Assembly: GCA_023512255.1 (NCBI GenBank)
Contig: JAILZY010000062.1
Location: 1 to 20,893, forward strand
DNA: 20,893 nucleotides
Origin: a bacterium
Lineage (GTDB): Bacteria; SZUA-182; DTGQ01
Direction: 5' to 3'
Numbering within the stretch: the stretch's first letter is position 1; each line of letters begins with the position of its first letter. Under the pieces are notes generated by a model. That model saw nothing but the letters and a program-made list of their open reading frames with translations, ran no database searches and was not told the origin of the DNA. Below are positions 3,340 through 13,819 of this stretch, one piece after another. The translations under genes and the position numbers were made by a program.

Positions 3340-3954
3340 ATGCTGAGCATATCAAGAGAAAAAATCGGAGAAAGAGCAAGGCAGCTGACAGCATTGCTGG
3401 CTGTGGTATTTTGTAGTGCTATGATGATGCTTTGGGCACCCAGATCATCTCTGGCTGGCGGCCATGGCGGCATGGGAGGTGGCTGCGGATGTGGGAGCGA
3501 TTATTATAATTATTATTATAACTATAATAGCTTGTATCCCTGGTATAACCAGGCTGGACGGACTGGAGCCGTATTAGGAACCTATCCGAACTATTATGCG
3601 TATTCTCCACTCTATTCTTATCCGTATTCATCGCTGTTGCCTTCCACCTATTCTAATCTGTATAATTTTTATCAGCCATACGGATACAATCCTATACTAG
3701 GAAATAGCCTATTATATCCTTACGGACAGGTCAATAGCAAGGAATATGCTGTCGAGCAGAGCAAAACCGTTTATGTGCCTGGCGGTGAAGTTACCACCAC
3801 AGTTTCGGAAAGTAGCGAGGTAAGCACACTACCTCAGTATACGCCTTATATGCTGTATAATTTCCCATACGGCTATTCGTATGGTTATAGCCCATATACG
3901 CTTGGGGCGGGTAATTACTGGGCAAATCTTGCTGGGCTTGGATGGTATTATTAA
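3340..3954 (+). CDS. Tyrosine-rich exported protein
   Basis: 204 residues, unknown function. A long N-terminal signal peptide (basic to residue 14, hydrophobic core about 17-33, cleavage likely near SSLAGG) is followed by a Gly/Cys patch (GGMGGGCGCGS) and then a mature region dominated by Tyr, Pro, Asn and Ser in SPLYSYPYSS- and YNYYYNYN-like runs. A more ordinary central part (about 130-165, with VYVPGGEVTTTVSESSEV) may be a short beta-structured segment. The start is supported by AGGGGG seven bases upstream. It ends 46 bases before the propeller protein, whose N-terminal region has similar aromatic/Gly/Ser composition, so the two likely form one transcription unit. A structural or surface role is inference. 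Confidence 0.8.
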   Translation: MLSISREKIGERARQLTALLAVVFCSAMMMLWAPRSSLAGGHGGMGGGCGCGSDYYNYYYNYNSLYPWYNQAGRTGAVLGTYPNYYAYSPLYSYPYSSLLPSTYSNLYNFYQPYGYNPILGNSLLYPYGQVNSKEYAVEQSKTVYVPGGEVTTTVSESSEVSTLPQYTPYMLYNFPYGYSYGYSPYTLGAGNYWANLAGLGWYY

Positions 3955-7272: not shown

Positions 7273-7406
7273 TTAGTGGTTCTTTCGCTAACAAAGTGCG
7301 CAAGCTGGGGGCGAACCCCAAGGTCTGTCCCTACAATTAGCTTATCCGCCCCTACAATTGATAGCGTAATTGATCCGCTGCCCACTTGTGTTACGCACTT
7401 AGCGAT
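7273..7406 (+). mobile_element. MITE-like element, family 1 copy C, right end degraded
   Basis: Starts with TTAGTGGTTCTTTCGCTAA (7273-7291) and carries the same core (CGCCCCTACAATTGATAGCG, GTGTTACGCACTTAGCGA). After that the right arm departs from the family and continues as a tandem TTAGCGATAAGG repeat, reaching almost to the antitoxin start codon. It lies in the same orientation as copy B, about 130 bases away. Confidence 0.7.
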
Positions 7407-7434
7407 AAGGTTTAGCGATAAGGTAAGTTACCCC

Positions 7435-7692
7435 ATGACAAACACGAACAAAACAATAATTACCCAAAAGGGGCAAGTTACAATCCCTAAACACATAAGG
7501 GATTATTTAGGGCTGAAAATCAAAACCAAGGTAGAATTCCTGATTGAAAAGGGAAAAGTAATAATCCAACCCGCCACTTCACTGGAAGCAAACTTTGGCA
7601 AAATAAGGGCAAAAAAGAAACCAGAGGATTTTAAAGCCGCAAGACTTTCTTTTGAAAAAGCCGTAGCCAAAGAAGCGAGCGAAGAAAAATAA
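7435..7692 (+). CDS. AbrB/SpoVT-type antitoxin
   Basis: 85 residues from the ATG at 7435. The swapped-hairpin AbrB DNA-binding domain fills the N-terminal half: TIITQKGQVTIPKHIRDYLGLK, then VEFLIEKGKVIIQP. The charged C-terminal helix (about 50-85) is the expected toxin-binding part. A longer in-frame extension back to 7276 exists but would be translated from the mobile element, so I reject it. AAGG stands about 11 bases upstream of the chosen start. The stop is four bases from the PIN toxin, a classic toxin-antitoxin pairing; the antitoxin normally represses its own promoter. Confidence 0.88.
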   Translation: MTNTNKTIITQKGQVTIPKHIRDYLGLKIKTKVEFLIEKGKVIIQPATSLEANFGKIRAKKKPEDFKAARLSFEKAVAKEASEEK

Positions 7693-7696
7693 CCTT

Positions 7697-8101
7697 ATGC
7701 GGTTTATAGACACAAACCTATTCCTGCGCTACCTTACCCGTGATGAGGAAGAAAAGGCGCAAAAAATTTTAGAGCTACTCAAAAGGGTAGAGAAAAGAGA
7801 AGAAAAAATAATTACTTCCTCTCTTGTTATGTTCGAGGTAATTTTTACTTTAGAGAAGTATTATAAAGTCTCAAGAGAAGAGATAAAGAAACTTTTATCC
7901 CCTCTTCTTGATTTAAGGGGGCTTAAACTCTCAGATAAAGAAGTGTTCAAAGATGCACTTGTCCTCTTCGCGCAAAAAAAGAGTCTCCCTTTTGTAGATG
8001 CCTTTAATGCCGCCTGGGCCATTAAGAATGGCATTAAAGAGATTTATAGCTATGACACTGACTTTGATAAGGTGGAAGGGATTAAAAGAGTAGAGCCTTA
8101 G
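7697..8101 (+). CDS. vapC: PIN-domain toxin (VapC-like ribonuclease)
   Basis: 134 residues, full PIN-domain length. Acidic metal-binding residues expected for the family are present: D5 (RFIDTNLFLRYL), E47 (SSLVMFEVIFTL), D101 (PFVDAFNAAWA) and D120/D122 (YSYDTDFDKV). VapC-type PIN toxins cleave tRNA or rRNA when freed from their antitoxin; the exact target here cannot be read from sequence. It follows the AbrB antitoxin by four bases, so they are cotranscribed. No truncation seen. Confidence 0.88.
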   Translation: MRFIDTNLFLRYLTRDEEEKAQKILELLKRVEKREEKIITSSLVMFEVIFTLEKYYKVSREEIKKLLSPLLDLRGLKLSDKEVFKDALVLFAQKKSLPFVDAFNAAWAIKNGIKEIYSYDTDFDKVEGIKRVEP

Positions 8102-8169
8102 GTAAAAAAATTCGTGCCCCAGGCAGGTCTCTAGTAGTTAAAAAAAAAGCAAATAGGAGGTGAAATCTC

Positions 8170-8640
8170 ATCAGCCTTGATGAATACCGGAAAAAAAGGT
8201 TTTTTTCAGCCACACCGGAACCTGAGGGCAGCAGCAGCCAGGAGCCGGAAGTTGATCAGTCAGCCACTGCTACCTCGGGCACGCGCTTTGTGGTCCAAAA
8301 GCATCAGGCCACACATCTTCACTATGATTTTCGGCTAGAGATGGATGGTGTCCTAAAAAGCTGGGCTGTTCCTAAAGGTGTGCCAGAAGTACCTAAAATC
8401 AAACGATTAGCTGTCGAAACCGAGGATCACCCCTTGGACTACATCTCTTTTGAAGGCATCATTCCTGAAGGCAATTATGGAGCAGGCCAGGTCGAAATCT
8501 GGGATCAGGGAGAATATCGGCTCAAAGAGCGGACAGAGAAAAAGATCGTTTTCGAGCTGATCGGCCGGCGCCTTGTAGGCAGATACGCCCTGATCCACAC
8601 TGCGGATAAGAATTGGATAATAATGAAGATGGCAAGCTAA
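8170..8640 (+). CDS. Stand-alone LigD-type 3'-phosphoesterase, apparent AUC start
   Basis: 156 residues if started at ATC 8170. This is the phosphoesterase domain of bacterial NHEJ ligase LigD: VVQKHQATHLHYDFRLEMDG, LKSWAVPKG, HPLDYISFEGIIPEGNYGAG, IWDQGEY, GRYALIHT and NWIIMK. The domain trims 3' phosphate/ribonucleotide ends at DNA breaks; conserved His/Asp positions (HYDFRLEMDG) are intact. Upstream in frame, SLDEYRKKRFFSATPEPEG is the usual family N terminus, preceded by AGGAGG (8155-8160) nine bases before ATC. There is no ATG, GTG or TTG between the in-frame stop at 8161 and GTG 8290, which is already inside the conserved domain. Either AUC initiates, or an ATG has mutated or been misread. 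No ligase or Ku gene is nearby. Confidence 0.85.
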   Translation: MSLDEYRKKRFFSATPEPEGSSSQEPEVDQSATATSGTRFVVQKHQATHLHYDFRLEMDGVLKSWAVPKGVPEVPKIKRLAVETEDHPLDYISFEGIIPEGNYGAGQVEIWDQGEYRLKERTEKKIVFELIGRRLVGRYALIHTADKNWIIMKMAS

Positions 8641-8698: not shown

Positions 8699-8714
8699 GT
8701 ATTGTTTATTTTAT

Positions 8715-8790
8715 GCGCCCGTAGCTCAGTAACGGATAGAGCAAGGGATTCCTAATCCCTGTGTCGGAGGTTCGAGTCCTCTCGGGCGCA
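8715..8790 (+). tRNA. tRNA-Arg (anticodon CCU)
   Basis: 76 bases fold as a complete cloverleaf: acceptor GCGCCCG/CGGGCGC with discriminator A, D stem GCTC/GAGC, anticodon stem AGGGA/TCCCT with loop TTCCTAA, variable GTGTC, T arm GGAGG-TTCGAGT-CCTCT. The anticodon CCT reads AGG arginine codons. No CCA is encoded. It converges with rlmN. Confidence 0.97.
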
Positions 8791-8829
8791 TTATTATTAC
8801 GCATTATTATTAAATTTTCTTCAGCCAGG

Positions 8830-12251: not shown

Positions 12252-12773
12252 CTATTTAGAGCTGGCAGTAGTCGCACCAGAAGAAGATAGCTGCTTCAGC
12301 AAAGAGGTCCAGCCCAGTAAGTCAGATTGCCCTTGCAGTATGGAAAGCCTTTGCAGTTCGTATAATCCGCCCAGTCCGTAGAGTCCGCCGAGTCCATACA
12401 GTCCGCCCAATCCGAAAAGTCCGCTCAAGCCGTAGAGTCCGCCAAGTCCGTAGTACCATTCACCCAATCCGTACAGTGAGCCCAGTCCGAAAAGTCCGCC
12501 ATAGAGTCCGCCATATAAACTGCCTAACCCATACAATCCGGATAATCCATAAAGTCCTAAATCGTATCCTCCATACCACCAGTCGGGGAATAAGCTGCCT
12601 AAACCATACCAACCACTTCCATAATATCCTGTATATCCTGTCCCATAAAGGCCACCTATCCCATAAAGGCCATATGAGCAATTCCCCAAGGTGGGAAAAG
12701 CAAGTGCCAGCATTGCTGGTATTATAAGAAAAGCCAATGCACCTTTTAGAGTTTTTTTACCGAAGATCAGCAT
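12252..12773 (-). CDS. Exported Gly/Leu/Tyr-repeat protein
   Basis: 173 residues from the ATG at 12773, which has AAGGAG seven bases upstream; an ATG ten codons earlier (12803) lacks such a site. Signal peptide about 1-33 (LKGALAFLIIPAMLALAFP). The mature part, about 36-143, is a repeat with a six-residue period of the type GLYGLG (18-bp DNA period) with W/Y-rich interruptions such as DWWYGGYDLG. A short ordinary tail ends in LSSSGATTASSK. Unknown function. Its neighbour 13184-13819 has the same layout, so they look like diverged relatives. Such repeats suggest a structural, self-associating extracellular protein, which is inference. Confidence 0.8.
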   Translation of the reverse strand: MLIFGKKTLKGALAFLIIPAMLALAFPTLGNCSYGLYGIGGLYGTGYTGYYGSGWYGLGSLFPDWWYGGYDLGLYGLSGLYGLGSLYGGLYGGLFGLGSLYGLGEWYYGLGGLYGLSGLFGLGGLYGLGGLYGLGGLYELQRLSILQGQSDLLGWTSLLKQLSSSGATTASSK

Positions 12774-13183
12774 CGAAGCTCTCCTTGAAACATAACCCTG
12801 CACTGCCTGCTGTTGAGATTTTTCCTGTAACCATTAATGTCTTCCAGGATATGTTATGTTCTTAAGCCTCTTTGATCTTCACCTAACCATCCCACACGAG
12901 CCTTGTTTTTAGGAGGGATTGCACCCGGCTGCTCAAGCTAAGATGCCAAAACCTGGATGCAACCCCTCCCGGTATCAGGAACCGGTTGGGGGGGAGTTAC
13001 ATACCGATCCCTGACCCTAACTTAAGAGTATTTTATTCACCCCTAACAGCATTATCTTGTATCTTTATCTTTCTTAACCAAAAATTCCCCCCTCATCCCC
13101 CCAAAAAACCTTATTCCCCAAAGCCGCTGCTTTTTCCCATAGCCTGGGGTAAATTCTCTCCCTCCTGGCTCTCTGAAGTGTGA
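12774..13183. other. Intergenic region between the two repeat-protein genes
   Basis: About 410 bases. It holds an imperfect 15-bp inverted repeat (GGAGGGATTGCACCC 12912-12926, GGATGCAACCCCTCC 12955-12969) with a long loop, and a C-rich stretch around 13080-13120. No promoter or gene could be supported. Confidence 0.5.
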
Positions 13184-13819
13184 TCATGGGACTAGGCTAA
13201 CCGCGTTGGCAGTAGCGGCACCTGCCGCTGTAGTGGCTGCCGTCACCTGGCTGCTCTGTGAGAGCGGAGAAGAGAAGATAGCTGCCAGCAGAAGAGGCTG
13301 CCATGCCGGATTCCCCAATCCTCCACTTATCAGAAGCTGAAGCCCCAAAGAACGCAGGCTGCTCAATCCATAAGATCCGAAAATATTTGCAGATCCGAAA
13401 AGATAGGCCAGGTTTTCTAAACCATCCTCTTTCCCAAGACCTGAGAGCCAAAGATTGCCTAGACCGTATAATCCTAAGCCATACCAGGTCGGCCCGTATA
13501 ATCCCAGGCCGTACAATCCACCGTACAATCCAAGACTGGAGAGTCCTAACCCTAGGCTGCCAAAAAGCCCTCCCGTTAAACCAGCAGACAGAGCGTATAA
13601 TCCAGGGTAATACGGTGGCACTCCTACCATCGGCAGGCCTGTGTAGCCTCCTGTCATCCCCACCAGGCTAGCAGCAGATAAAGAGGGATAAGCATAGCTT
13701 TGGTATGGCGAAGCATAGCTGGCGTAGCCCCCGTAAAGCCCGTAATAGGCTAGGCTGCCTCTCGGCCAGATAGCCACCATAATGCCAAAAGCCAAAGCCA
13801 ACCGGTGAGCTGTTTTCAT
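13184..13819 (-). CDS. Exported Gly/Leu/Tyr-rich repeat protein, predicted sigma-54 controlled
   Basis: 211 residues. Signal peptide about 1-24 (LALAFGIMVAIWPRGSLA, cleavage before YYG). The mature N-terminal part is Tyr/Ser/Ala-rich (YGGYASYASPYQSYAYPSL); about 80-135 is GLYGGLYGLGLYG-type repeat; about 150-175 is Leu-rich; the tail is Ala/Thr-rich (TAATTAAGAATANA). Unknown function. GGGGGGAGG directly precedes the ATG. A nearly perfect sigma-54 promoter lies about 110 bases upstream, and paired TTAACYGCA words are further up, so expression should need an activator such as the one at 15654-16703. Confidence 0.8.
   Translation of the reverse strand: MKTAHRLALAFGIMVAIWPRGSLAYYGLYGGYASYASPYQSYAYPSLSAASLVGMTGGYTGLPMVGVPPYYPGLYALSAGLTGGLFGSLGLGLSSLGLYGGLYGLGLYGPTWYGLGLYGLGNLWLSGLGKEDGLENLAYLFGSANIFGSYGLSSLRSLGLQLLISGGLGNPAWQPLLLAAIFSSPLSQSSQVTAATTAAGAATANAVSLVP

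Follow-up and report, generated by a model that had tools for sequence, protein, structure and literature searches.

Where does translation of a gene begin when its conserved N terminus offers none of the standard initiation codons? The question was raised by a LigD-type 3'-phosphoesterase gene in a 20,893-nt stretch of bacterial DNA (contig JAILZY010000062.1 of GCA_023512255.1, a draft MAG assembly of 172 contigs; hereafter, the window), at whose expected start position stands an ATC. AUC is a very rare start codon compared with AUG. To our knowledge, few documented bacterial genes start with codons other than AUG, GUG, or UUG, and gene finders ignore such starts; annotation restricted to ATG, GTG, and TTG would begin this gene at the GTG at 8290 and cut 40 residues. 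The original prediction, made from the sequence alone, had left three options, namely genuine but weak (perhaps regulated) initiation at AUC, a base error, and an ATG recently mutated to ATC, and had proposed that the codon be compared in close relatives.

Read from the ATC, the protein (156 aa; 8170-8640, plus strand) matched PF13298 (E 5e-41) and TIGR02777 (E 4e-54; 182.7 bits, above the cut-off of 144), the latter over profile positions 1-153 of 156 and from protein residue 3. The solved chains 3p43 and 2lj6 also align with the protein from residue 3 onward, and its QKHQATHLHYDFR and EDHPLDY stretches align gap-free with the 2lj6 chain. The likeness to the LigD 3'-phosphoesterase domain in stand-alone form (TIGR02777, PF13298; PDB 3p43, 3p4h) extends over the whole domain, including the N-terminal arm, and over the active-site His/Asp/Arg motifs. 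By alignment, equivalents of Pseudomonas aeruginosa His42, His48, Asp50, Arg52, His84, and Tyr88, which we take to be the catalytic residues, all appear to be present. Roles for some P. aeruginosa LigD catalytic residues are given in a review (PMC8656161), which also lists N-terminal residues 14, 15, and 21 as needed for part of the activity (residue 15 is printed there as Arg). In 2lj6 numbering these are Arg14, Asp15, and Glu21, and they correspond to Arg10, Phe11, and Glu17 of the protein described here; the Asp15-equivalent position (8200-8202) is Phe in the window and Asn in the congeneric genome G001, while the neighboring Arg and Glu are kept. A start at GTG 8290 would delete all three positions along with the rest of the N-terminal arm (SLDEYRKKR..TPEPEG) and the linker (8173-8289), a part supported by its codon changes relative to G001 and by alignment with P. 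aeruginosa LigD. The ORF, present in one copy in the window's genome (G000), is predicted to encode a complete LigD-type 3'-phosphoesterase with an N terminus typical of the family.

Direct reading of the start region placed an extended Shine-Dalgarno (SD) sequence, AGGAGGTGA, at 8155-8163 of the plus strand. Its first six bases (8155-8160) are AGGAGG, and its core, AGGAGGTG, is that of Streptomyces sigR (PMC5472188). From 8155 onward the bases read AGGAGGTGAAATCTC-ATC-AGC-CTT-GAT-GAA-TAC, with the ATC at 8170-8172 and a spacer of 9 nt between AGGAGG and this codon, as had been predicted. Translation likewise bore out the claim that the frame is closed upstream by a TGA (8161-8163, inside the SD) and that its first standard start is the GTG at 8290-8292, with a loss of 40 codons; no in-frame ATG, GTG, or TTG lies between the TGA and this GTG, which is codon 41. 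From the ATC the ORF continues uninterrupted for 156 codons to the TAA at 8638-8640. The arrangement is that of a non-canonical-start gene: the conserved N terminus lacks a standard initiation codon, and a near-cognate codon follows a strong SD. RNA around the start folded no better than shuffled sequences in the window (z -0.57) or in G001 (z 0.49), and we therefore claim no structural switch there. Pairing of the G001 SD with the sequence surrounding its ATC is possible (GGAGGUGA-GGC-UUAUCUCC; L002, minus strand, about 1935-1956); it is neither conserved in the window nor better than in shuffles. A promoter and terminator search gave no informative match.

Nine genomes of the phylum were compared, and a close relative of the gene was found in G001 and a short, distant one in G002. 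Since G001 is the only congener among them, the within-genus comparison comprises two species. The G001 homologue has 82% protein identity, and its start region reads AGGAGGTGA-GGCTT-ATC-TCC-CTG-GAT-GAA-TAC. The SD (all 9 nt) and the ATC are identical in both genomes, while the spacer has a changed sequence and a 1-nt indel, and the upstream neighbor differs as well (a metF-like gene, named from its sequence, in G001; a MazE/PIN pair in the window). Because of the indel and the TGA at 8161 in the window, only the ATC or the codon preceding it (CTC/CTT) could, at this site, start both genes in frame, and retention of the ATC and SD across the indel implies that the two genes have no shared in-frame start further upstream. 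It is the ATC, not CTC/CTT, that coincides with the family Met, and it is found in both genus members examined (n = 2).

Codon comparison of the two genes gave a dN of 0.119 and a dS of 0.910 (dN/dS about 0.13). This distance bears on whether the ATC arose as an artifact of sequencing or assembly, or by an ATG-to-ATC change so recent that only this genome has it. The family norm of ATG at this position and the draft state of the window's assembly would agree with either; however, G001, assembled separately and at a dS of about 0.9, shares both the codon and the SD in front of it, and the same base is unlikely to have been miscalled twice independently. We consider this explanation highly improbable, and the ATC site is probably a genuine, low-output start. 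Thus, two of the options originally offered, the base error and the recent mutation, appear unlikely, and the comparison with a close relative leaves a true, weak AUC start as the best supported of the three.

The same alignment speaks to initiation at GTG 8290, which would yield a 116-aa core enzyme and leave the upstream part untranslated. Some relatives (L013 and L017, M-P-R-F-V-I-H-K-H) do have a naturally short protein that starts immediately ahead of the core, but GTG 8290 lies four residues later than their start, is preceded by no SD, and would leave the strong SD at 8155 standing idle. Moreover, the first 19 aligned codons after the ATC had a dN of 0.15 and a dS of 0.93 (dN/dS about 0.16), with seven synonymous and three non-synonymous codon changes, including a serine AGC/TCC exchange; the linker, at about codons 21-38, varies between the two species. 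Since codon changes in the N-terminal region are mostly synonymous, these codons appear to be translated as protein. Lacking an SD and with constrained codons upstream, GTG 8290 was rejected as the main start, to which we give a very small probability; its earlier dismissal is upheld by the synonymous-biased change upstream and by the family N terminus.

Two further routes to a standard start were weighed. G001 has an in-frame GTG three codons before its ATC (GTG AGG CTT ATC), overlapping the SD; it is poorly placed, yet translation could start there. An ancestral GTG of this kind might have been lost from the window by a 1-nt insertion, leaving expression impaired, and the window's spacer is indeed one base longer. 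However, the GTG sits inside the SD with no spacing, and the window's ORF shows no decay at the low dN/dS of the pair, so we regard such a loss as unlikely. Alternatively, ribosomes could start out of frame at ATG 8180 or TTG 8177 and then shift by -1 on the A7 run at 8191-8197, ATG 8180 being in the frame from which a slip at GGA AAA AAA G enters that of the enzyme. This ATG is 19 nt from the SD, which is too long a distance, and is a by-product of conserved Asp-Glu codons; the slippery run is not conserved (G001 has CGAAAGAAAAGG), and the conserved SLDEY would be discarded. With the run absent in G001 and the SD too distant, we rejected the frameshift, which has the lowest probability of all the alternatives.

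To place the AUC start in context, we considered the family and the genome background. Of 64 alignable N termini of the family, 36 carry ATG at the start position, a single one carries GTG, and only the two from this genus carry ATC; most of the remainder start a few codons away at a standard codon. The motif AGGAGGTG-N4-8-ATC occurs at 25 sites in the whole genome, only one of which, the window's, opens an ORF of more than 50 aa without a nearby standard start. This singularity, the match to the family's start position, and the sharing with G001 speak against a chance occurrence. In a 1.22-Mb sample of the genome, GGAGG was followed at 5-10 nt by the standard start of 208 ORFs; there were few other near-cognate matches and no second convincing ATC start after GGAGG. 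The MAG yielded no 16S rRNA from which to read the anti-SD. A search of viral contigs returned only two distant relatives.

Precedents exist for such a start. In Streptomyces, sigR has a GTC start behind AGGAGGTG and is repressed by IF3; according to the authors, the initiation complex, although mispaired, may be stabilized by the long SD (PMC5472188). The infC gene, autoregulated from an AUU start in E. coli, has ATC as its start codon in Streptomyces (PMC5472188). Like sigR, the gene described here is a non-infC gene whose start, preceded by the extended SD AGGAGGTG, is non-canonical and conserved within the genus, while outside relatives have standard starts. It differs from sigR in its codon (AUC, not GUC), in its product (a repair enzyme here, a sigma factor there), and in that control by IF3 is putative. 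With infC it shares a near-cognate start with a strong SD, AUC being a documented start codon, but its product is not an initiation factor and hence a direct feedback loop is lacking. In this lineage, infC, the classical case, itself seems to be translated from a near-cognate codon preceded by an extended SD, since it apparently starts at ATA behind GGAGGTGAT(A) in G000, G001, and G003. The three genes (L090, at about 20700 of G000:C14, L091, and L093) have no standard start at the N terminus; that of G000 is intact, and its next in-frame ATG is about 30 nt from the SD. In G002, the start position of infC (L095) reads ATA ATA.

Considering these observations together, we infer initiation at the AUC, its weakness, and its control by IF3, with different degrees of confidence. 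It is likely that a complete, stand-alone LigD-type 3'-phosphoesterase is translated from the AUC at 8170 by weak, SD-driven initiation. The strong extended SD would hold the 30S subunit in place, giving time for the initiator fMet-tRNA to be accepted on the mispaired AUC codon; IF3, which rejects such codons, would keep output low, and the enzyme level would rise where IF3 is limiting. By analogy, the AUC start is probably IF3-sensitive, and regulated translation is plausible given the sigR and infC precedents. More tentatively, and with considerable doubt, the AUC start may be under selection and may put a stand-alone end-healing enzyme under the control of IF3 levels, which would make it another, independent case of the sigR type in a lineage without NHEJ. 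If so, end repair would rise as the fidelity of initiation drops, e.g., under stress or slow growth. That an ordinary enzyme gene has a conserved AUC start and a sigR-like extended SD suggests a recurring design, in which the extended SD is combined with a near-cognate codon and which could be found by comparative genomics.

As for the enzyme's function, PF02735, TIGR02778, and PF01068 had no match in G000 or G001. Ku had no match in the genomes examined across the whole phylum, and the LigD polymerase and ATP-dependent ligase had none in G000, G001, and two more genomes; controls were positive in all of these searches. The gene differs from the known LigD 3'-phosphoesterase domain in its start codon, in the Phe (Asn in G001) that replaces P. 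aeruginosa Asp15, and in a genome in which Ku, the LigD polymerase, and an ATP-dependent ligase, the components of a bacterial NHEJ system, were not detected. Because none of the three was found, the enzyme appears to be an orphan outside classical NHEJ. Presumably it cleans 3' ends in another setting, and a low enzyme dose would fit the weak start. The gene lies between a pair encoding a MazE-like antitoxin and a PIN-domain toxin, directly upstream (7276-8101), and a tRNA-Arg (CCT) directly downstream (8714-8791). Elsewhere in the window, three ORFs (3340-3954, 12252-12803, and 13184-13819) are very rich in Gly, Tyr, Ser, and Leu and have signal-like N-terminal stretches, and one of them contains repeated GLYGLGGLYGL-type units.
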